A stretch of 64,000 bases of DNA from Vibrio sp. 16. Lineage in GTDB: Bacteria; Pseudomonadota; Gammaproteobacteria; Enterobacterales; Vibrionaceae. This document shows, in pieces, positions 2,257 through 63,456 of the stretch. Under the pieces are notes generated by a model. The model searched no databases. It was not told the DNA's origin and was given only the letters and a program-made list of their open reading frames with translations. Positions within the stretch are counted from its first letter, which is position 1. Every line of letters begins with the position of its first letter. Made by a program: the position numbers and the translations under genes. The stretch lies in contig NZ_OY808997.1 in NCBI RefSeq assembly GCF_963681195.1, forward strand, positions 558,001 to 622,000, given 5' to 3'.

Positions 2257-4323
2257 CTAGCGTCCGCTTGTGCAACTGTCCAACGTCAGGGTGAATGTCA
2301 TCCCTGATTCCGTGTTGAGCGAGGCGTGAATGGTGCCTCGCATGTCTCTGACATTATTGGCGGTGATGGCAAGACCCAAGCCAAGACCTTCGCCAATTTT
2401 TTTATTGGTTTGGAATGGTTCAAAGATGGAGCCCAGTTGGTCAGGGTCAATGCCGCAGCCATTATCGGAAACATCGAGAGTGACCTTATCACCGATGCGC
2501 TTGGCGTTGATGCTAATGGTTGGAGTAGCGCGACCTTTGAGCGCATCAATCGCGTTGCGAATCAGGTTACCAAGCACTTGACGCAGGCGTACCTCTTCTC
2601 CCAATACCCAATTGACATCTTGCGCCACCCGCACTCGAACATCGATTGATCTTAGGGCGTCTTGCTCTAGCCGGAGTACTTCTTCTAGGGCCAAGGTCAG
2701 AGAGACGGGCTCAGGCTTTTCCAGTTTCTGGAAGGCAAAGGATTTCAGCTGAGAGGTCATGTTAGCCATCCGATCAATTAGGGTGCTGACCAGTTCTAAA
2801 TTGGCTTGGGCCAGTTTTGTTTCACCCCGTTCGATAAGCAGTTGATTACTGGATAATAGCGTTCTCAATCCTGTCAACGGCTGGTTGAGTTCATGCGTAA
2901 TCGCGCTCGACATTCTACCTAATGCTGCTAATTTACTGGTTTCGATAAGCTCCTTCTGCGCTTCCTCTAGCGCTTGGCTTCGCTCTTCAACTCGTTGTTG
3001 CAGCAGTCGGTTTGCTGATTCCAGTGCGATTTCCGCCTTCTTACGTTTACTGATGTCCATGATGGTACATAAGTAGTAGGAGTGTGCATCCCAGCGGAAT
3101 TGGCTGATTGAAAATAGGACCGGGAAATGACTGCCATCACTGCGTCGGGCGAAGGTTTCGACGCTACTCAGTTCGGCGACCTCCCGATGTTGAGAAAGGT
3201 TTTTGAGCAGCCTAAGTGTGGTTGAGTTTGGATTTCCTGTATCGAACAGCTGCCAAGCATCCACTGAACCAATCATGGAATCAGCGAGGTTAAAGTAGCG
3301 TTTTGCCATCGAGTTAATGTCGGTGATCAAACCGTCTTTATTGACTAATAGTATCCCTACGTGAGTTTTGTTGATCATGGCATTGAGCCGCTTTTCAGAC
3401 TCGACTAATAATTTCTGAATTCTCACTTGGCTCAAGGCTTTTTGATGCTTCTGATAGCGAATGATGAGTAGTAAACAGACCACCACACAAGCCGCGGCAA
3501 TGCTCCAGCTTAACCAGGCAACATTGTTTTCCATTGTACTGATTGGGGTGAGATAGGTGAGCTCCCATTGCAGATCGTCTAGCAGGACAGATTGCGCGAG
3601 GTAACGCGTTTTACCGAGCGGCCAAATTGAAAAACGAGTGTCATCGAACAAAGTGGTTGGCTCGCTCATTTGTTGTTTGTCGAACGCATCATTAAACCAG
3701 TCCGCTGTGAAAGTCTTGCTACTAGAGAGAAAAACGTGGCTGTTGGGTTTCTCTGCCAAAATGATTTCTTCACTGGTAAGCCACTGTTCGGTGAGTAAGC
3801 TCAGGTCGATTTGAACGACGACAATGCCAGCAATATCGAGCCCCAAGTACATCGGCGCGGCGAGGAAATACTCAGCAAAGGTTCCCTTGTTTTTGGTGAC
3901 GACTGCCACGCCTTCACGTTGTTTATGGATTTGTTTAACAATGGATTCGATATCTGTGGGGGGGAGTTGGTATTGCTTTGAGCTTGATGCCAACACATCC
4001 CCGCTTGATGAGAGAATCGACCAACCGAGCGTATTGGCGGCTTTGTCGAGCTTGGCCAGTTGCTCTTCGATATCAGGTTGTAGTGTTAGGTTGCCTTTGA
4101 GGTAGTCGAGGCTTTGTGAGTCATTAGTCACAAGGTAAGGCAAATGGTAGAAACGTTGCAACGAGCGTCGCGCATCACCGATGTAGTCGAGCAATCGCTG
4201 CTCGGTTTGGCTTTGAATTGCGCTCAAGCTCCATTGAGTGGCGATCTCTCTGCTGGCGATCTGAATGGCGCTGATGGCCGAGATCACGAGAATCACTAGC
4301 CAATAACGATGACCTTTACTCAT
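2257..4323 (-). CDS. DctB-like sensor histidine kinase with PAS domain
   Basis: Membrane histidine kinase of 688 residues, divergent from its likely partner regulator. Layout: TM1 ~8-28; a large periplasmic sensor ~30-266 of the double-Cache type typical of DctB; TM2 ~268-290; a PAS domain ~307-430 with a C-terminal extension; a coiled linker; HisKA with the phospho-acceptor in AITHELNQPL (H477); HATPase_c with the N box near N590, the G1 box DNGCGI at 620-625 and the G2 box GEGLGLGLAI. All catalytic motifs are intact. DctB-type kinases sense C4 or other dicarboxylates outside the membrane (family knowledge). Because the downstream transporter is a TAXI TRAP rather than a DctP or DctA type, the ligand here may be a C5 acid such as 2-hydroxyglutarate (inference). 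Confidence 0.92.
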   Translation of the reverse strand: MSKGHRYWLVILVISAISAIQIASREIATQWSLSAIQSQTEQRLLDYIGDARRSLQRFYHLPYLVTNDSQSLDYLKGNLTLQPDIEEQLAKLDKAANTLGWSILSSSGDVLASSSKQYQLPPTDIESIVKQIHKQREGVAVVTKNKGTFAEYFLAAPMYLGLDIAGIVVVQIDLSLLTEQWLTSEEIILAEKPNSHVFLSSSKTFTADWFNDAFDKQQMSEPTTLFDDTRFSIWPLGKTRYLAQSVLLDDLQWELTYLTPISTMENNVAWLSWSIAAACVVVCLLLIIRYQKHQKALSQVRIQKLLVESEKRLNAMINKTHVGILLVNKDGLITDINSMAKRYFNLADSMIGSVDAWQLFDTGNPNSTTLRLLKNLSQHREVAELSSVETFARRSDGSHFPVLFSISQFRWDAHSYYLCTIMDISKRKKAEIALESANRLLQQRVEERSQALEEAQKELIETSKLAALGRMSSAITHELNQPLTGLRTLLSSNQLLIERGETKLAQANLELVSTLIDRMANMTSQLKSFAFQKLEKPEPVSLTLALEEVLRLEQDALRSIDVRVRVAQDVNWVLGEEVRLRQVLGNLIRNAIDALKGRATPTISINAKRIGDKVTLDVSDNGCGIDPDQLGSIFEPFQTNKKIGEGLGLGLAITANNVRDMRGTIHASLNTESGMTFTLTLDSCTSGR

Positions 4324-4486
4324 TGGCGTTTCCTAACTCAAACGGATGGGCTTCTCATTGGTTTTACTGTCAACACGCTAGCAAATTCCCAATTTTTTGT
4401 TAAGAACTTGTAGATGAAAAGTGGGAGCTAGCTCCTTTCCGTTGTTGACTTTTTCTCATACCGTTGCTGAAGGAGGAATGCATCGT

Positions 4487-5845
4487 ATGGAAGAAGTTAT
4501 GGAAGCATGTGTCGCACTGGTGGAAGATGATGCCATTGTTCGTCAAGCGACCAGTCAGTGGCTGCAGCTCGCTGGGTTTGAAGTGAGCCCGTTTGATGAT
4601 GGTGAGCAGTTGATGGTCTCGCTCCAGCACAGTGAATTCGACGTAATCGTCAGTGATGTAAGACTGCCCGGCATAGATGGCGTCGATCTGCTGAGCCAAG
4701 TTAAGCAGCGATTTCCAACTATTCCCGTGATATTGATTACCGGCCATGGTGATGTGGATATGGCGGTGAAAGCGCTGCAAATGGGCGCTTATGACTTTAT
4801 AGAAAAGCCGTTTGATCCTCAGCGTTTGTCCGATACCGTGTTAGCCGCGGCTGCCCATTATCAACAGGGCAAAGAGCGAGAAGATAGACGCTCTTATCTT
4901 GAGAGCGTCGACGGGATTGAAGAAATCATCATTGGTCGTAGTCAGGTGATGTGCGATCTTCGGGAGCAAATCGCCAAAGTGGCGACCATCGATACCAATG
5001 TGATCATATACGGCGATACGGGCTGTGGTAAGGAGTTGGTTGCGACATGTTTGCATCAGTTCAGTCGCCGGCAGCGTCATCCTTTCGTTCCCCTCAATTG
5101 CGGAGCAATTCCAGAAAACCTATTTGAGAGCGAGCTGTTTGGTCATGAAGCAGGGGCGTTTACAGGAGCGACCAAACGTCGCGTTGGAAAGCTGGAGTAT
5201 GCCAACAAAGGGACACTTTTTTTTGATGAAATCGAGAGTATGCCGCTCGCGATGCAAGTGAAAGTATTGCGCTCTTTGCAAGACCATATGGTTGAGCGAG
5301 TGGGAGGCAATCAGCCAATCTCAGTCGATTTGCGCGTTGTGGCTGCCGCCAAACACGATCTCATGAACCATCCTGATTTTCGCCAAGACCTTTACTATCG
5401 ATTGAACGTCGCTCAGCTTTATCTTCCGCCCCTTTGCGAACGCGAAGATGACGCCTTGCTGCTGTTTGAGCACTTTTCCCATCAAGCCAATCAGAATACG
5501 CGTTTAGCCAGTGAAGCAGACAGGCAAGCCCTATTGACCTACTCGTGGCCTGGCAATGTTCGTGAATTGCGCAATGTCGCGATCCGGTTTGCACTCGATG
5601 AATCGGTCACGGTGGGTGAGATTCTCTCTTCTCGACCGAATACTTTAAGCGAAACCTCTAACGCCGGAATTCCGTTAGCGATTCAGGTCCAGAGCTTTGA
5701 ACGCAAAGTGATTCATGATGCGCTGGTACGTCACAACGGCAAAATTACCCAAGTGATGCAAGAGCTCGATCTTCCACGGCGCACGCTCAACCAAAAAATG
5801 GCGCGCTATGCGTTGAATCGAAGTGATTATGTGAGTGGTGATTGA
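4487..5845 (+). CDS. DctD/NtrC-type sigma54-dependent response regulator
   Basis: Receiver-AAA-HTH activator of sigma54 RNA polymerase, 452 residues from the chosen start. REC ~6-120 has the acidic pair D14/D15, phospho-acceptor D57 and a switch lysine in EKPFDP. The AAA+ domain ~150-385 has Walker A GDTGCGKE and the sigma54 contact loop GAFTGA. A Fis-type HTH sits at the C-terminus (ITQVMQELDLPRRTLNQKM). An ATG at 4421 is also in frame, but the Shine-Dalgarno AAGGAGG at 4470-4475 and the family N-terminus favour 4487 (4478 and 4499 are alternatives). It probably receives phosphate from the divergent kinase and binds the three palindromes that start 19 bp after its stop codon. Confidence 0.93.
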   Translation: MEEVMEACVALVEDDAIVRQATSQWLQLAGFEVSPFDDGEQLMVSLQHSEFDVIVSDVRLPGIDGVDLLSQVKQRFPTIPVILITGHGDVDMAVKALQMGAYDFIEKPFDPQRLSDTVLAAAAHYQQGKEREDRRSYLESVDGIEEIIIGRSQVMCDLREQIAKVATIDTNVIIYGDTGCGKELVATCLHQFSRRQRHPFVPLNCGAIPENLFESELFGHEAGAFTGATKRRVGKLEYANKGTLFFDEIESMPLAMQVKVLRSLQDHMVERVGGNQPISVDLRVVAAAKHDLMNHPDFRQDLYYRLNVAQLYLPPLCEREDDALLLFEHFSHQANQNTRLASEADRQALLTYSWPGNVRELRNVAIRFALDESVTVGEILSSRPNTLSETSNAGIPLAIQVQSFERKVIHDALVRHNGKITQVMQELDLPRRTLNQKMARYALNRSDYVSGD

Positions 5846-5847
5846 GA

Positions 5848-5892
5848 CAAATTTGTGGCGGGATAAGCGAAATTTTGCTCACCACAAATTTG
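5848..5892. repeat. Inverted repeat enclosing operator copy 1
   Basis: CAAATTTGTGG at 5848-5858 is exactly repeated in inverse at 5882-5892, beginning three bases after the regulator stop codon. The 23-nt loop contains the first operator palindrome. As RNA it could form the 3' end of the regulator message; as DNA it could be an extra binding site. There is no U-run for a classic terminator. Confidence 0.55.
5864..5881. promoter_or_regulatory. Putative activator site copy 1 (TAAGCGA-N4-TTGCTCA)
   Basis: This 18-bp imperfect palindrome with 7-4-7 architecture matches two further copies closer to the sigma54 promoter. Its centre is about 229 bp upstream of the predicted transcription start. The left half differs from the TGAGCAA consensus at two positions, so it is the weakest copy. 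Confidence 0.6.
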
Positions 5893-5973
5893 CTGCGGTT
5901 TGTTTGAATGATCACATTTCTTTAACTTTTGAGTCATTAACAAGGGGTATATGGCCAATATGACCCTGTGAAA

Positions 5974-5991
5974 TGAGCGACTTTTTGCTCA
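5974..5991. promoter_or_regulatory. Putative activator site copy 2 (TGAGCGA-N4-TTGCTCA)
   Basis: Second copy of the 18-bp palindrome, one mismatch from perfect symmetry, extended by A/T to ATGAGC...GCTCAT. Its centre lies 34 bp from copy 3, roughly three helical turns, which suits cooperative binding of a dimeric NtrC-family regulator. Confidence 0.72.
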
Positions 5992-6002
5992 TCGCCCTCT
6001 TT

Positions 6003-6030
6003 GTAAATGAGCAAGATTTTGCTCATTTAC
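6003..6030. promoter_or_regulatory. Putative activator site copy 3, perfect 12-bp inverted repeat
   Basis: GTAAATGAGCAA and its exact inverse flank a 4-bp spacer, the best of three copies of TGAGCAA-N4-TTGCTCA (core 6008-6025). The centre is ~85 bp upstream of the predicted start, a normal distance for a sigma54 enhancer. The divergent/adjacent DctD-like regulator is the obvious candidate to bind it. Confidence 0.78.
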
Positions 6031-6074
6031 GTCACCATATGAGTTTCTATCTAAATAATTCAATAACTTACAAT

Positions 6075-6091
6075 TTGGCATCGCTTTTGCT
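6075..6091 (+). promoter_or_regulatory. Sigma54 (-24/-12) promoter of the TAXI operon
   Basis: TTGGCATCGCTTTTGCT matches the RpoN consensus TGGCAC-N5-TTGCA, with the GG (6077-6078) and GC (6089-6090) separated by exactly 10 bp. It lies ~60 bp upstream of the binding-protein start and downstream of three palindromic enhancer-like sites and a GAFTGA-containing activator gene, which makes the assignment strong. Confidence 0.88.
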
Positions 6092-6148
6092 CTTACAGAT
6101 TTGATTTAACAAAATAATAACGTGAACAACTCTACATGGAGAGTAAAG

Positions 6149-7159
6149 ATGAAATACAACAAACTGGTGAAAACCCTAGCGGTCGCGATGGCTTCTTTTG
6201 GTTTGGTATCGAATGCGGTAGCAGAAGATCGCAGCTACATCCTTGCAACGGCATCGACAGGGGGAACGTATTATCCAGTGGGGGTTGCTTTGGCGACCTT
6301 GAGCAAAGTGAAACTGGCACCTAAGCATCACTTCTCTTTGTCAGCGATCAGCTCAGCAGGATCTGGTGAGAACGTTAAGCTGCTGAATGAAAATGAAGCG
6401 CAATTTGCCATCCTGCAGGGGTTGTACGGCGCTTGGGCTTGGTCTGGTCAAGGTCCTTATGAGAAAAGTGGTCGCCAAGAAGGGCTACGCTCTGTGTCTA
6501 TGCTTTGGCAAAACGTTGAGCACTTCATCGTTCGTTCGGACCTTGTGGAAAGTGGGACGGTAAGCGATCTGAACAATCTAGATGGCAAGAAGTTTTCCAT
6601 CGGTAAGAAGAACTCAGGGACAGAGAACTCTGGTCGTCAAATCATGAAAGGCTTAGAGGTCGACCCAGACAAGTTTAATCTTGCCTACATGGGCTATGGT
6701 GGTAGTGCGAGTGCACTGCAAAATGGCACCATTGATGGCATGAACACGCCAGCGGGTGTTCCCGTCGGAGCGGTAACTCAAGCATTTGCAGCTCTGGGTG
6801 ATGATATCCAAATCCTATCGTTTACCGATCAGCAGATCAAAATGGCGAATGGCAAATACAACCTTTGGACGAAATATGAAATTCCAGCCAACACCTACCC
6901 GGGTGTCGACAAGCCGATCACAACCATTGCTCAACCTAACTTCTTAGCGGTTCGACAAGACATTTCTGAAGAAGATGTTTACCAACTAACCAAAACAATT
7001 TACGAAAACCTACCATTCCTACAAGGCATTCACAAAGCAACAAAAGCGATGGCGATTGAAAAAGCGATCGCGGGTTTGCCACTTCCTCTTCATCCGGGAG
7101 CTGCTCGTTACTACAAAGAAGTGGGTGTCGAGATCCCGTCTGAACTATTGATCAACTGA
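6149..7159 (+). CDS. TAXI-family TRAP transporter solute-binding protein
   Basis: Periplasmic substrate-binding protein of 336 residues. A GTG at 6122 gives a longer frame, but ATG 6149 has a GGAG Shine-Dalgarno 8 bp upstream and begins a clean signal peptide (MKYNKLVK, hydrophobic stretch, cleavage after AVA before EDRS). The mature N-terminus YILATASTGGTYYPVG is the TAXI hallmark that gives the family its name type, and GKKFSIGKKNSGTE and YMGYGGSASALQNGTIDG follow as in TAXI proteins. It delivers substrate to the fused membrane subunit encoded next. TAXI proteins have been linked to C4/C5 acids such as glutamate and 2-oxo or 2-hydroxy acids; the neighbouring oxidase points to 2-hydroxyglutarate (inference). 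Expression should depend on sigma54. Confidence 0.93.
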   Translation: MKYNKLVKTLAVAMASFGLVSNAVAEDRSYILATASTGGTYYPVGVALATLSKVKLAPKHHFSLSAISSAGSGENVKLLNENEAQFAILQGLYGAWAWSGQGPYEKSGRQEGLRSVSMLWQNVEHFIVRSDLVESGTVSDLNNLDGKKFSIGKKNSGTENSGRQIMKGLEVDPDKFNLAYMGYGGSASALQNGTIDGMNTPAGVPVGAVTQAFAALGDDIQILSFTDQQIKMANGKYNLWTKYEIPANTYPGVDKPITTIAQPNFLAVRQDISEEDVYQLTKTIYENLPFLQGIHKATKAMAIEKAIAGLPLPLHPGAARYYKEVGVEIPSELLIN

Positions 7160-7170
7160 TCACCTGATAA

Positions 7171-7194
7171 CGCGCACCCGATGAGCGGTGCGCG
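7171..7194 (+). terminator. Intercistronic hairpin between binding protein and permease
   Basis: CGCGCACC (7171-7178) pairs perfectly with GGTGCGCG (7187-7194) around an 8-nt loop, 11 bp after the binding-protein stop. No strong U-run follows, so it is more likely an mRNA-stabilising or partial-termination element that lets the binding protein outnumber the permease. Confidence 0.6.
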
Positions 7195-7250
7195 CTTCAA
7201 TTATTATTTGTTTTGCTCTACTGAGAAGTTGGAGTGCGTTGGAGTGGATT

Positions 7251-9386
7251 ATGAGCGATTCGATGCAAGAGGAATTGCAAAAATTTGAGTTACCTACCCG
7301 AACGGATTTTCCGTGGGTGGGCAAAGTCATTACCGCGTTTGGTGTGGTGCTATCGCTGTTACATATTTGGTTCAATACCTTGTCGACCTTACCCGAGTTA
7401 TGGATTTCAGCAACGCACTTTGCGGGTTTTGCTGTGATTTGTGCGCTGTGGTACCCAGCCCATATTTCGCTAAAAAAGAGTAAGTTCGCGCTTGGGATCG
7501 ATGTGCTGATTGCGATTGCGGCGCTTGCTTGTCTGGTGTACATCCCGTTTGCGGAAGATGCGCTGTATGAGCGAGGAGTCAAGTTTGTCGCCAGTGATTG
7601 GTTTTTTGCCATTCTTGCTATTGCCATTGTTATCGAATTGATTCGTCGAACCATGGGTTGGTTTATTCCCATGCTGATCTTGGTTTGTTTAAGCTACGTG
7701 GTGGTGTGGGGACAGTGGGCAAGTGGCATTTTCCATTTCCCGGGTTTAAGCCTTGAAACATTGCTGTACCGCAGCTTTTACTCTTCTGAAGGTATGTTTG
7801 GTTCGATCTCTCGGATCAGCTGGACCTTCGTTTTCATGTTCATCTTGTTCGGCGCCTTCTTAGTGCGTTCAGGGGTGGGCGATTACATTATTGATGTTGC
7901 TCGCGCGGCCGCGGGTAAAATCATTGGTGGTCCTGGGTTTATCGCCGTGATCGGCTCTGGTTTAATGGGATCTGTCTCTGGCTCGAGTGTCGCGAACACA
8001 GTGTCTACTGGCGTTATTAGTATCCCTTTAATGCAAAAAGCGGGCTTTCCATCTCGATTTGCTGCAGGGGTTGAAGCCGCGGCATCCACTGGTGGGCAAC
8101 TGATGCCTCCTGTTATGGGGGCGGGTGCCTTCATTATGGCCTCTTACACGCAGATTCCTTATGTCGACATCATCGCGGTGTCGTTTATTCCTGCGCTGAT
8201 TTACTTTCTATCCGTAGCGTTTTTTGTCCGTATCGAAGCAAAGCGCAGCGGGGTACAAAAAGTAACGACGAGCGATGAGTCTCTGTTTAAGGTGCTGATT
8301 TCCGGTTGGCACAATCTGATTCCATTGGCTGTGTTGGTCACGCTATTGGTTCAGGGTTTTACACCTACCTATGCAGCTGGGCTGTCTATCATTTCCGTGG
8401 TTGTCGCGTCGTGGTTTTCCAAAAATCACAAAATGGGCCCTAGAGCGATCATCGAAGCGCTTTCCCAAGGGGCGAAAAACATGGCAACGACGGCGGTGTT
8501 ACTGGTGGGAATTGGCTTGGTCATTAACGTTATCAGTACCACGGGGATCGGAAACACCTTCTCGCTTATGATTGATGGCTGGGCGAATGGTGATTTGTTT
8601 ACCATGATCGTGTTGATTGCACTTGCTTCATTGGTACTCGGTATGGGGCTTCCTGTTACCGCAGCGTATATTGTGCTGGGTACGCTTTCAGCCCCGGCGT
8701 TGTACAAGTTGCTGGCTGAGAATCAGCTACTTGATCTGCTTGTGGCTGGTCAACTGCCTGAACAAGCAAAAGCGATCTTTATGCTTGCCGCACCTGACAA
8801 GCTAGCGCTCTTGAGTGCACCTATGACCCTTGAAACGGCAAAAGAGATGATAGCGCTTGTTCCCGCTGATTTCATGGAAACGTTACTAGAGCAAAGCCTT
8901 GGTTTAGAAGCGGTTGGCCTAGCGCTGCTGTCGGCCCACTTAATCATTTTCTGGCTTTCTCAAGACAGTAACGTGACGCCGCCAGTATGTTTGACCGCGT
9001 TTGCGGCGGCGACGATCGCTAAAACGCCACCAATGCGCACAGGTTTAATGGCATGGAAAATCGCCAAAGGGCTTTACTTGGTGCCTCTGCTGATTGCGTA
9101 TACCGGATTGGTCAGTTGGGATGTGACGTCAGTGCTTGTCACGGGTGTGTTTGCCATTGTCGGCACTTACGCTTTTATCGGTGCAATCGAAGGATACCTT
9201 GAGGGAGAACTCAATGTGCTAGTTCGTATTGGGTTGGTTGCGATTGGTTTGGCGCTCGTTTGGCCTGATGTACCGATCTGGATTCGCTTAGTGTTAAGTG
9301 GTGTGTTCATTGCGATTTTCCTTCACAGTGGTCGCCAATCTTCGACATTGGGCGTGAAGGAACCAGCGGACAAGGTGGCCAATTAA
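7251..9386 (+). CDS. TRAP transporter fused permease subunit (DctQM-like, TAXI type)
   Basis: Integral membrane protein of 711 residues combining the small (4-TM) and large (12-TM) TRAP subunits. ATG 7251 with GGAGTGG upstream is preferred to an in-frame GTG at 7188 that lies inside the hairpin. The first ~170 residues contain four hydrophobic helices; then the large domain carries the typical GSGLMGSVSGSSVANTV and GGQLMPPVMGAGAFIMA segments and a second GMGLPVTAAYIVLG repeat, the duplicated re-entrant substrate/Na+ region. It should import the ligand using the sodium or proton gradient together with the preceding binding protein. It is followed after one base by the oxidase gene, so all three are one operon. 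Confidence 0.93.
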   Translation: MSDSMQEELQKFELPTRTDFPWVGKVITAFGVVLSLLHIWFNTLSTLPELWISATHFAGFAVICALWYPAHISLKKSKFALGIDVLIAIAALACLVYIPFAEDALYERGVKFVASDWFFAILAIAIVIELIRRTMGWFIPMLILVCLSYVVVWGQWASGIFHFPGLSLETLLYRSFYSSEGMFGSISRISWTFVFMFILFGAFLVRSGVGDYIIDVARAAAGKIIGGPGFIAVIGSGLMGSVSGSSVANTVSTGVISIPLMQKAGFPSRFAAGVEAAASTGGQLMPPVMGAGAFIMASYTQIPYVDIIAVSFIPALIYFLSVAFFVRIEAKRSGVQKVTTSDESLFKVLISGWHNLIPLAVLVTLLVQGFTPTYAAGLSIISVVVASWFSKNHKMGPRAIIEALSQGAKNMATTAVLLVGIGLVINVISTTGIGNTFSLMIDGWANGDLFTMIVLIALASLVLGMGLPVTAAYIVLGTLSAPALYKLLAENQLLDLLVAGQLPEQAKAIFMLAAPDKLALLSAPMTLETAKEMIALVPADFMETLLEQSLGLEAVGLALLSAHLIIFWLSQDSNVTPPVCLTAFAAATIAKTPPMRTGLMAWKIAKGLYLVPLLIAYTGLVSWDVTSVLVTGVFAIVGTYAFIGAIEGYLEGELNVLVRIGLVAIGLALVWPDVPIWIRLVLSGVFIAIFLHSGRQSSTLGVKEPADKVAN

Positions 9387-9387
9387 C

Positions 9388-10608
9388 ATGAGTATGGAAC
9401 GAGTGTACGACTATGTGGTTGTAGGTGGCGGGATCGTCGGTGTGTCTACCGCTTGGCAACTCAAACAGTCCCAGCCTGATAAAACCATCCTATTGATTGA
9501 AAAAGAGTCGGGATTTGCCCATCACCAAACGGGGCATAACAGCGGTGTTATTCACGCGGGTGTCTATTATCAACCGGGAAGCCTCAAAGCTGAGTTTTGT
9601 AAACGAGGGGTAGAGCGGACGATCGATTTCTGCCGTCAGCACAATATAGCGGTCGAGAACTGCGGTAAATTGTTGGTCGCGACAAATGATGTGGAGCTGC
9701 AACGGATGCATGCCCTCTACCAACGCTGTGATGAGAATGGGATTGAAGTTGACCTGTTGGACCAAGCTCAGCTAAGTTTGGCTGAGCCGAATATCACAGG
9801 GCTTGGTGCTATTTACGTTAAATCGACCAGCATAGTGGATTACAAACTAGTCACCGCTCAGATGGCCAAGGAGTTTGTCGAACTCGGTGGAGAGGTGCAA
9901 CTTGAATCGGAAGTGATTGCGGCTCAAGAGACCAGTGATGACATCTATCTCACTTGTATGAGCAAAGGCGAAAGCTCGGTGGTGGTGGGTAAGTTCTTAA
10001 TCACGTGTTCGGGTCTGATGGCCGATCGAATGACCAAGATGTTATCTATTGAGACTGACTTTCAAATCGTGCCTTATCGCGGGGAGTATTATCGACTTGA
10101 TTCCAAGCATAATGGCATAGTGAACCATCTTATATACCCCATTCCTGACCCTGATTTACCATTTCTGGGCGTACACCTCACCAGAATGATTGATGGTTCG
10201 GTGACGGTGGGGCCTAATGCCGTTCAGGGTTGGAAGCGGGAAGGGTATGGGGCGATCAATTTTAGCCTCAAAGACACTATGCAGATGCTGCGTTTCAGTG
10301 GCTTTTGGAAAGTGACAGCGAAACACCTCAAAACTGGGCTGGTGGAATTTAAAAACTCATGGTGGAAGCCCGGCTACTTGAAACTAGTTAACAAGTATTG
10401 CCCTAGCATTCAACTCAGTGATCTGAAGCCTTATCCTGCCGGCATTCGCGCTCAGGCGGTGATGAAAGATGGTACGCTCGTTCATGACTTTCTGTTTGCC
10501 GAAAGCCCTCGCAGTTTGCATGTTTGCAACGCACCATCTCCTGCTGCGACTTCAGCGATGCCTATTGGTGAATATATCTGCCAAAAGGTCATCGCTAAAG
10601 TGGGGTAA
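9388..10608 (+). CDS. lhgO: L-2-hydroxyglutarate oxidase (LhgO family)
   Basis: FAD-dependent oxidoreductase of 406 residues of the DAO superfamily. The N-terminal Rossmann motif VVGGGIVGVSTAWQL and the downstream HHQTGHNSGVIHAGVYYQPGSLKA segment are diagnostic of LhgO. The family oxidises L-2-hydroxyglutarate to 2-oxoglutarate at the membrane, passing electrons to quinone. The start codon sits 2 bp after the permease stop, and the upstream SD is weak (AAGGTGG), consistent with translational coupling. Placement in a regulated import operon, rather than next to a csiD/gab-type lysine degradation cluster, suggests use of external 2-hydroxyglutarate (inference). Confidence 0.9.
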   Translation: MSMERVYDYVVVGGGIVGVSTAWQLKQSQPDKTILLIEKESGFAHHQTGHNSGVIHAGVYYQPGSLKAEFCKRGVERTIDFCRQHNIAVENCGKLLVATNDVELQRMHALYQRCDENGIEVDLLDQAQLSLAEPNITGLGAIYVKSTSIVDYKLVTAQMAKEFVELGGEVQLESEVIAAQETSDDIYLTCMSKGESSVVVGKFLITCSGLMADRMTKMLSIETDFQIVPYRGEYYRLDSKHNGIVNHLIYPIPDPDLPFLGVHLTRMIDGSVTVGPNAVQGWKREGYGAINFSLKDTMQMLRFSGFWKVTAKHLKTGLVEFKNSWWKPGYLKLVNKYCPSIQLSDLKPYPAGIRAQAVMKDGTLVHDFLFAESPRSLHVCNAPSPAATSAMPIGEYICQKVIAKVG

Positions 10609-10614
10609 GTGAAG

Positions 10615-11070
10615 TTAAGGGGTTGGAATGGTGATGAAGGTTGCGTCAAATACGCTTCTATCACCTTCTGACAACTTAGCCTGATAATTAACTGCTTGCT
10701 GGTAGTGCTCTGCGGCTTGCGCGTTGTGATCGGATATAGATAACGCGTGGCTTAATACCGCGTTGGTGAATGCTTGAATCCAGTCTGCTCCTTCACCGTC
10801 AAAGTGTTCAAACGCGCTTTGGGCAAATGATAGGCTTAGCTCTGATCCGCTGATACAAAGCGCTCTTGCAACGGCGAGTTCAGCAAGATGTATGTTGTCT
10901 GCCGTACCGACGCTTGACCAATGATAGAGCGAAGTAAAGGCAACCGTGAGTAATCGTTGCTGCTCTTGTGTTGTACTGGCTTTTTCAGACAAGCTCCAAA
11001 ACTCATTATTACTTTCAATCGCGAAGTAGCGGTTTAGGCGAGTGATGTCATCCTGTGTCGGTTTTGCCAT
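10615..11070 (-). CDS. Conserved hypothetical protein, helical, TPR-like
   Basis: Soluble protein of 151 residues starting MAKPTQDDI. An upstream in-frame ATG at 11133 exists, but AAGGA lies 6 bp before the 11070 start. It is almost all helix, with repeated short helices of TPR spacing (LAELAVARALCISG, ALSHALSISDHNAQAAEHYQQAVNYQAKLSEGD) and no signal peptide or catalytic motif. I do not recognise a named family. It converges on lhgO with only 6 bp between the stop codons, and stands alone downstream of a PTS terminator, so context gives no function. Confidence 0.7.
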   Translation of the reverse strand: MAKPTQDDITRLNRYFAIESNNEFWSLSEKASTTQEQQRLLTVAFTSLYHWSSVGTADNIHLAELAVARALCISGSELSLSFAQSAFEHFDGEGADWIQAFTNAVLSHALSISDHNAQAAEHYQQAVNYQAKLSEGDRSVFDATFITIPTP

Positions 11071-11214
11071 GAGACGTCCTTTTGTTATTTTTGGATTGAT
11101 AGATATAGGCTGAACTTCCATGGTATTTATCATTAGCAGAAAAGTACGATTGCTAAATAAGTTGTTGGAAACACGTTAGGTTTTTAATGCAAGAGAGCTG
11201 CAAATGATGGAATG

Positions 11215-29181: not shown

Positions 29182-29262
29182 AAATCGAAGCCGTCGAGGG
29201 TAAGCGGCCCGCTATTTTAGCTAAATCGGGCTAGTGGACCAAATGATCCTAATCATGAAGAT

Positions 29263-29293
29263 AAAAAAAGCCCAGAGCAACAGTGCTCTGGGC
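29263..29293 (-). terminator. Minus-strand intrinsic terminator in an intergenic region
   Basis: GCCCAGAGCA / TGCTCTGGGC, a perfect 10-bp stem with a 4-nt loop, is followed on the minus strand by seven U residues. On the plus strand there is no U-run. It lies upstream of the PLP enzyme start (29181), so it must end some transcript arising between 29293 and 29590. Confidence 0.85.
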
Positions 29294-29340
29294 GGATACA
29301 AACATAGGAGTTAATAAGAAAAAGCTGCGTAAATTAGTAG
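29263..29340 (-). ncRNA. Candidate small RNA ending in an intrinsic terminator
   Basis: On the minus strand a strong terminator ends at ~29263 although no minus-strand gene lies upstream of it before the divergent TetR gene. Ahead of the terminator is a U/C-rich unstructured stretch containing ACTCCTAT, complementary to a Shine-Dalgarno. A perfect -35 hexamer TTGACA lies at 29369-29374 with a poor -10 (TCTTAC) 17 bp later, giving a start near 29340 and an RNA of ~75-80 nt. The 5' end is uncertain and the transcript could be longer, up to ~280 nt. Confidence 0.4.
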
Positions 29341-29560
29341 CTTCAGTAAGAAAACAAGTTCGACGGCCTGTCAACTTAGGAAATGCTCTGCTAACTACAA
29401 TTAATCAGACTGGCGTAATTCAAAACAGTTCAATAAAAAACGGAAAAATTTTAATTTTTTTCTTTCAGCGGTTTAGCTGCTTGAAAAATGTTCTGGTCGG
29501 ACCAATGCGCAAAAATGTGATGTTAACAGCTTGTTGATTATTTGTGTCAGGTGTATATTT

Positions 29561-63274: not shown

Positions 63275-63456
63275 ATGTGCGGTAGAGGCGCGGAATAAAT
63301 AAGTAATGCTTGTTGGGGTGATGCCAATGAACAAGTAGGAAAGGTTATTTCGCCGAAGTGGGCTATCAAATCAAAGATGCTTGCTGGGGTTACACTCGAA
63401 AGGGGTAACACTGCCATAGTCTATAATTTGTAAAACTATGGAGCGCTACTGTAGGG
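63275..63456 (+). ncRNA. Lysine riboswitch (L box)
   Basis: The ordered conserved blocks of the LYS element are all present: GTAGAGGCGCG, GTAATGCTTG, AGGAAAGG, CGCCGAAGTG, GCTGGGGTTA-loop CGAAAGG-TAACACTGCCA and CTATGGAGCGCTACTG. The 5' CGGTAG (63280-63285) pairs with CTACTG (63446-63451) as P1. It binds L-lysine and turns off the downstream gene. It precedes an NhaC-family transporter, a known target (LysW group) in Vibrio and Shewanella. Confidence 0.95.

Follow-up and report, generated by a model that had tools for sequence, protein, structure and literature searches.

The window analysed here, that is, the whole 64,000-nucleotide stretch of Vibrio sp. 16 (contig NZ_OY808997.1, positions 558,001 to 622,000), carries near its beginning five adjoining genes for a sensor histidine kinase, an NtrC-type response regulator, a TAXI solute-binding protein (SBP), a fused TAXI-TRAP permease and LhgO, an L-2-hydroxyglutarate oxidase/dehydrogenase. 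The last three of these genes form an operon, and we consider it likely that this operon imports 2-hydroxyglutarate, and probably 2-oxoglutarate too, feeding LhgO.

Gene order and control region

All coordinates are positions within the window, and gene starts were judged by eye, weighing the Shine-Dalgarno-like letters upstream. The SBP gene (6149..7159, forward strand) encodes 336 amino acids from the probable ATG at 6149, which lies behind GGAG (a start at GTG 6122 was rejected); its product scores 359.3 bits against PF16868 (cut-off 27) and 342.7 bits against TIGR02122 (cut-off 84.35), and its N-terminus resembles, by eye, a cleavable signal peptide. The permease (7251..9386, forward) is a single fused chain of 711 amino acids from the probable ATG 7251, GTG 7188 having been rejected, and reaches 689.7 bits against TIGR02123 (cut-off 320.65). 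It is followed by LhgO (9388..10608, forward; 406 amino acids), which scores 601.6 bits against NF008726 (curated cut-off 299) and is predicted to oxidise L-2-hydroxyglutarate. Between the permease stop codon (TAA, 9384-9386) and the LhgO start (ATG, 9388) there is a gap of 1 nt, not the 2 bp given in the first-pass annotation of this DNA. Upstream of the SBP gene, the regulator (4487..5845, forward) has 452 amino acids from the probable ATG 4487, behind AGGAGG (GTG 4421 was rejected), and consists of a receiver, a sigma-54 AAA+ domain and a Fis-type helix-turn-helix (Pfam Response_reg, Sigma54_activat and HTH_8). The kinase (2257..4323, reverse; 688 amino acids) has a periplasmic tandem-PDC sensor at its N-terminus, flanked by two long helices that were taken by eye as membrane spans, and then PAS, HisKA and HATPase domains. 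The predicted fold of this tandem-PDC sensor is DctB-like (the best matches include DctB structures bound to succinate and to malonate), which would fit dicarboxylate sensing and names no ligand.

The five proteins named by the first-pass annotation are thus all present, with the SBP, the permease and LhgO scoring far above the curated cut-offs of their profiles. They had also been described as a single sensor-to-oxidase module in one operon, and of that description the adjacency of the five genes stands, but a five-gene operon was rejected in view of the opposite strand of the kinase and the gap between regulator and SBP. Because the kinase is divergent, the regulator lies about 300 nt upstream, and a sigma-54 promoter stands between, the operon proper is SBP-permease-LhgO.

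The promoter in question is a -24/-12 element, TTGGCATCGCTTTTGCT (6075..6091, forward), with one mismatch to YTGGCAYRNNNNTTGCW, and it is preceded by two near-identical palindromes, TGAGC-N6-TTGCTCA (5974..5991, forward) and, 34 bp from it, TGAGCAAGATTTTGCTCA (6008..6025, forward), which are candidate binding sites 1 and 2 of the regulator; a degenerate copy, TAAGC-N6-TTGCTCA, occurs at 5864..5881 (forward). The palindrome is matched exactly at five separate sites of the 4.66-Mb genome (three contigs), two of them at this locus and three within mechanical open reading frames (ORFs), and since those three sit inside ORFs, no further regulon members emerge from the palindrome. In order to score promoters, a site was defined as a -24/-12 match of at least 11 of 13 letters lying more than 100 nt before a reference codon near the mature N-terminus, and 52 upstream regions were examined. 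Such a site was found in 35 of the 36 loci where an NtrC-type regulator is linked and in none of the 16 where it is not (hand count; Fisher p = 2e-12, a value inflated by shared descent), and shuffled sequence scored 11 anywhere in 480 nt in 1.2% of cases. It follows that regulator and sigma-54 promoter travel together, and the single miss among the 36, L044, has a broken regulator gene. At L044, two opposite-strand ORFs of about 406 amino acids precede the SBP gene, and SBP-permease-LhgO is intact with no sigma-54 site ahead of it. With three mismatches allowed, the window shows no excess of the sigma-54 pattern (171 occurrences vs. 185 expected), and the weight of the sigma-54 assignment rests on the one-mismatch site plus its conservation.

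A known arrangement of this kind is DctB-DctD with DctPQM, in which a DctB-type sensor and an NtrC-type activator act with a sigma-54 promoter, a TRAP-class transporter and the DctP binding protein. The window locus resembles it in the sensor fold, the NtrC-type activator, the sigma-54 promoter and the TRAP-class transporter, so that here, too, a predicted sigma-54 activator is accompanied by a predicted sigma-54 promoter at its target, but its binding protein is of the TAXI type, and its operon includes a catabolic oxidase.

Recurrence of LhgO beside the transporter

We sampled 121 Vibrionaceae genomes and found 43 SBP copies of at least 70% identity in 37 genomes, the window included, the other matches listed being about 30% identical; from the latter, in the same 121 genomes, 18 other TAXI loci were hand-picked for comparison. 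LhgO was searched within about 7 kb of the TAXI genes. The same-strand order SBP-permease-LhgO was present in 17 of the 43 close copies, window included, and in one more (L061) LhgO is found past the kinase gene, which gives 18/43 vs. 0/18 for the other TAXI loci (Fisher p = 6e-4); these 18 loci also had no match to the window kinase or regulator. At the level of whole genomes, LhgO occurs in 36 of the 37 genomes with a close SBP vs. 30 of the 84 without one and, when the linked genomes are left out, in 18/19 TAXI genomes vs. 30/84 (Fisher p = 3e-6); a genus-stratified test of the whole set gave p = 3e-7. Shared descent is not fully removed in these co-presence tests. Six genomes of genus g3 (G036, G046, G055, G063, G071 and G078) have two close SBP copies each, about 80% and about 73% identical to the window SBP and lying in different neighbourhoods.

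The same oxidase family and reaction are known from the CsiD-LhgO (glaH-lhgO) pathway of lysine and glutarate, in which, according to PMC6265302, the cell forms L-2-hydroxyglutarate internally from glutarate, whereas the LhgO of the window is tied to an importer. The window genome also has a second lhgO (L003), which follows csiD (PF08943, 468.5 bits), and csiD is not beside lhgO at the TAXI locus; since the second LhgO sits behind csiD, the window LhgO is a separate, transporter-linked copy. Among 20 unlinked LhgO loci fetched, csiD adjoins LhgO in six (L222-L225, L227 and L228) and is not adjacent in 14, including all eight from genomes of g3 and g7 (L229-L236). In addition, a YdiJ-type D-2-hydroxyglutarate dehydrogenase scores over its cut-off in the window genome, and therefore an imported D form could be used too.

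Outside Vibrionaceae, the SBP was matched in 37 of 394 genomes of the order with an E value of at most 1e-40, Vibrionaceae making up 12 of the 37, and in 8 of the 20 loci fetched from the other 25 LhgO lies directly behind the permease (L096-L102 and L111, the last being Xenorhabdus griffiniae, with an SBP 42% identical to that of the window). The search of the class added one linked locus among nine new ones (L120), in the order LhgO-SBP-permease, and this rearranged order is evidence against mere inertia of gene order; the search of the phylum added one among ten (L126, of the same class), where kinase, regulator, SBP, permease and LhgO follow each other on one strand. Linkage is, nevertheless, far from universal, given that no LhgO was seen in the remaining order, class and phylum loci, and by eye, among the neighbours listed, no other enzyme recurs as LhgO does near the distant SBPs that lack it. 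One of these loci, L110, holds an SBP of the clade (54%) with no permease match, a kinase-regulator pair alongside (by eye), and neighbours that look, also by eye, like a gamma-glutamyltransferase and an amidohydrolase.

A scan of named genomes with the L111 SBP gave 172 relatives, from which 80 loci were kept (33 enteric, 47 from Bacillota and others). In 30 of the 33 enteric loci, from Xenorhabdus, Serratia, Budvicia, Proteus and others, the gene after the permease or next but one is LhgO, and in 20 of these 30 a GntR-like ORF stands between the two genes, its GntR and FCD domains being confirmed for L164. Three of the 47 Bacillota and other loci also have LhgO (L171, L175 and L198), for a total of 33/80, and in most Bacillota loci a GlcD-type hydroxyacid dehydrogenase replaces it, GlcD homologues being present in 43 of the 80 loci (L175 holds both). 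The Bacillota GlcD fell under the NCBIfam glcD cut-off in all three loci tested, and that its substrate is D-2-hydroxyglutarate is a guess. Four loci have none of LhgO, GlcD and LarA: in L139 the permease is truncated, L148 and L195 run out at the ends of their contigs, and L144 lacks LhgO although its permease is complete. LarA, a nickel-pincer isomerase, has homologues adjoining the TAXI genes in five of the 80 loci (L188, L194, L210, L212 and L214), with GlcD as well in four of them and, in L214, without LhgO or GlcD. The L188 and L210 homologues belong to NCBIfam group 22 (NF052515), and the other three were found by BLAST. We regard the group 22 protein as a candidate 2-hydroxyglutarate racemase; a term search of two LarA papers returned no function for group 22, and the matching passages of these papers assign 2-hydroxyglutarate racemization to other LarA groups.

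Binding site, phylogeny and characterised relatives

The glutamate-specific TAXI protein of V. cholerae, VcGluP, contacts the amino group of its ligand with Y45, Q93, E125 and M201 (PMC11574862). In 155 SBPs of the clade to which the window SBP belongs, P. mirabilis included, the places of VcGluP H123, E125 and D157 hold W, N and T in 155/155, and the place of M201 holds P in 154/155 (W120, N122, T158 and P201 in the window), with Y45 and Q93 nearly always kept, as both are in the window. Among the 18 other TAXI proteins, W and P at the H123 and M201 places never occur, and the E125 place has E in 12 and N in six, the same six having T at D157 together with M at Q93, Y at H123 and V at M201. 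Since these six share N and T only, N and T are not diagnostic and W and P are. The M201 place varies among VcGluP-like rows. Judged from the alignment, the loss of the acidic E125 partner would fit a ligand without an ammonium group, such as 2-hydroxyglutarate.

The SBP tree (71 rows; a quick search with no bootstrap and with long branches flagged) is in keeping with this grouping, as it recovers the window clade of 32 rows with a support of 100 in the Shimodaira-Hasegawa-like approximate likelihood-ratio test (SH-aLRT) and separates this clade plus the enteric and Bacillota rows from the 18 other TAXI with an SH-aLRT of 99. On this tree, the label of being adjacent to LhgO needs four changes, three of them forced by starred branches. 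The LhgO tree, also a quick search with no bootstrap and one in which long branches meet, has the TAXI-linked copies in several places, with seven changes, at least two of which are forced by strongly supported branches. AlphaFold2 gave a model of middling quality for the SBP (predicted local distance difference test score, pLDDT, 73), which was used solely for finding solved relatives.

Two characterised systems bear on the window transporter. VcGluP and its permease VcGluQM (VC0430/VC0429) are alike in pairing a TAXI SBP with a fused permease, and the window genome itself has a paralogue of that type, but the two SBPs of the window genome are 27% identical, E125 and M201 are replaced, and the window permease lacks, in the alignment, the C-terminal claw-like extension seen in L078, the VcGluQM-like permease of the same genome. 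A glutamate ligand by analogy with this Vibrio paralogue was rejected on the binding-site letters and the SBP tree. The other system is that of Proteus mirabilis, whose TAXI-TRAP transporter is described as specific for 2-oxoglutarate and 2-hydroxyglutarate in PMC12344293 (published in 2025, citing Roden et al. 2023), and as alpha-ketoglutarate-specific and proton-driven, with PMI1055 as its permease, in PMC11574862. In P. mirabilis ATCC 29906 (L164), the gene row is SBP-permease-GntR-LhgO, and we infer that L164 corresponds to the PMI1055 system because its SBP is the only TAXI SBP in that genome. It is like the window system in having a TAXI SBP with a fused permease, in falling in the same SBP superclade with the same binding-site letters, in having LhgO in the gene row, and in lacking the claw-like extension of the permease. 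It differs in the GntR regulator between permease and LhgO, where the window has a DctB/NtrC-type pair, and in a permease without the insertion of about 70 amino acids that precedes the TPPV motif, in the alignment, in the permeases of the window, L036, L057, L120 and L126; this insertion is likewise absent from the aligned Xenorhabdus and Bacillota permeases. By eye, the SBP N-terminus looks cleavable in the window and uncleaved in P. mirabilis. The Proteus SBP is reportedly membrane-anchored.

Another relative is VCA0144 of V. cholerae (PDB 9ibp, released 2025-12-24), which is 80% identical to the window SBP; this identity and a Vibrio VrrA RNA in the window suggest that the genome belongs to Vibrionaceae. 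The title of the PDB entry names no ligand, a proteome table lists the protein with nothing further on it there, and by eye the same two-residue gap is present in it and in L051, a copy without a linked LhgO.

Candidate substrates and neighbouring features

Because the LhgO linkage, the P. mirabilis relative, the replacement by GlcD and the binding-site letters agree, 2-hydroxyglutarate probably lies in the substrate range of the window transporter, and the suggestion of the first-pass annotation that it may be the imported ligand is strengthened. The annotation had also presented the LhgO context as a strong clue to the substrate in a family of mostly unknown substrates; the clue does recur across lineages, but the question is less open than supposed, since a TAXI of 2-oxoglutarate and 2-hydroxyglutarate specificity is already in print. 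Most likely, then, the system works as follows. The periplasmic TAXI protein would bind a C5 dicarboxylate and deliver it to the fused permease, which would drive inward transport by an ion gradient, one of protons if it resembles the P. mirabilis system. LhgO would then convert L-2-hydroxyglutarate into 2-oxoglutarate for the tricarboxylic acid cycle, the L form being the usable one, and would pass its electrons to quinones, as is described for E. coli LhgO in PMC6265302. The DctB-like kinase would sense the same or a related periplasmic dicarboxylate and phosphorylate the NtrC-type regulator, which would in turn bind the paired palindromes and fire the sigma-54 promoter ahead of the SBP gene.

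Several observations weigh against this assignment. We found no binding, transport or growth datum for the window system, its published relative has an SBP only 42% identical to that of the window, and PMC11574862 labels that relative alpha-ketoglutarate-specific. 2-Oxoglutarate may be transported as well as 2-hydroxyglutarate or better. LhgO is missing within about 7 kb of 25 of the 43 close Vibrionaceae copies, so the transporter persists in places where LhgO is not linked to it, and one genome (G051) carries the TAXI and no LhgO over threshold. Regarding the binding site, N and T at E125 and D157 are also found in 6/18 other TAXI, and the affinity of VcGluP was severely lowered only by changes of Y45 and Q93 (PMC11574862), both of which are kept here, making the E125 and M201 replacements suggestive only. 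Finally, among solved structures the GlcD of L168 comes nearest to a glycolate oxidase and to lactate dehydrogenases, and human D-2-hydroxyglutarate dehydrogenase ranks lower.

Some of these same points favour 2-oxoglutarate as the true substrate and inducer, with LhgO salvaging the 2-hydroxyglutarate that arises from side reactions when 2-oxoglutarate is plentiful, in particular the alpha-ketoglutarate-specific, proton-driven label of the P. mirabilis system and the 25 close copies without a linked LhgO. However, LhgO linkage across lineages, in two gene orders, points to a hydroxy acid as a normal substrate, and so does the presence of another hydroxyacid dehydrogenase in the place of LhgO in most Bacillota loci; we therefore hold this explanation to be unlikely, if still worth serious attention. 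Much less probable is a broad C4-C5 dicarboxylate transporter whose neighbouring LhgO acts on endogenous L-2-hydroxyglutarate only: DctB-type sensors do bind dicarboxylates other than C5 ones, as in the succinate- and malonate-bound fold matches mentioned above, but in the window genome the endogenous route already has a LhgO of its own, the one linked to csiD, and LhgO is linked with SBP and permease across lineages. A shade less credible still is an importer of glutarate, which CsiD elsewhere in the cell would hydroxylate to L-2-hydroxyglutarate for LhgO. The csiD-lhgO pair at another locus of the window genome speaks for it, but no CsiD match appeared in the TAXI neighbourhoods examined with CsiD among the queries, and eight TAXI genomes (those of g3 and g7, L229-L236) have LhgO without an adjacent csiD, with no genome-wide csiD search made there. 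Last, glutamate import as in VcGluP, with LhgO adjacent by chance or for osmolyte balance, has in its favour the glutamate-binding V. cholerae and Thermus TAXI proteins (PMC11574862) and the conserved Y45 and Q93, but we give it hardly any credence, since the window clade has N and P where VcGluP contacts the amino group through E125 and M201, the SBP groups with that of Proteus and not with the VcGluP-like ones, the permease lacks the claw-like extension, and a separate VcGluP-like TAXI, 27% identical, is present in the same genome.

Returning to 2-hydroxyglutarate import, we found in the open-licence literature, among the papers listed, no paper other than PMC12344293 joining L-2-hydroxyglutarate with TRAP or TAXI transporters, and none joining LhgO and TAXI. 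What the present comparison would add to the published specificity is a TAXI branch linked to LhgO, apparently controlled by a DctB/NtrC-type pair and with a soluble-looking SBP, and the recurrence in gene neighbourhoods of LhgO across lineages, Proteus included, together with its replacement by GlcD homologues in most Bacillota loci. It also offers a cheap and specific ligand prediction for VCA0144 (9ibp), most TAXI substrates being unknown. If the reading is true, L-2-hydroxyglutarate, known chiefly as a lysine-breakdown intermediate and oncometabolite, would also be a sensed and imported bacterial nutrient, and kinase and regulator together would make up a natural biosensor for this acid or related ones. 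A wider and more tentative proposal, which is possible although we would not at present favour it, is that a large TAXI clade of Pseudomonadota and Bacillota is dedicated to 2-hydroxyglutarate, with the operon slot setting the handedness: LhgO for the L form, a GlcD/GlcF-type enzyme for the D form, and a LarA-type group 22 racemase in some Bacillota. In that case, 2-hydroxyglutarate would be a common extracellular nutrient, with a sensor of its own in Vibrionaceae.

Within the operon, a GC-rich hairpin lies between the SBP and permease genes (7165..7199, forward; -18.5 kcal/mol in an RNA fold of 70 nt) and may lower downstream expression, stable hairpins behind the binding-protein gene being common where the binding protein is made in excess. 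Beyond lhgO, and convergent with it, is an ORF of 172 amino acids (10615-11133, reverse) with no Pfam or NCBIfam family match. On the other side, adjoining the kinase gene, is a methyl-accepting chemotaxis protein (391-2010, reverse) with an sCache_2/dCache_2 sensor, CtpM-like but under the cut-off (310 vs. 900 bits) and with no match in L036-L055; possibly, it is a chemoreceptor that detects the same acid. An Rfam scan gave no match inside the TAXI-LhgO gene set, and elsewhere in the window lie the VrrA small RNA (29262-29398, reverse) and a lysine riboswitch (63275-63456, forward).

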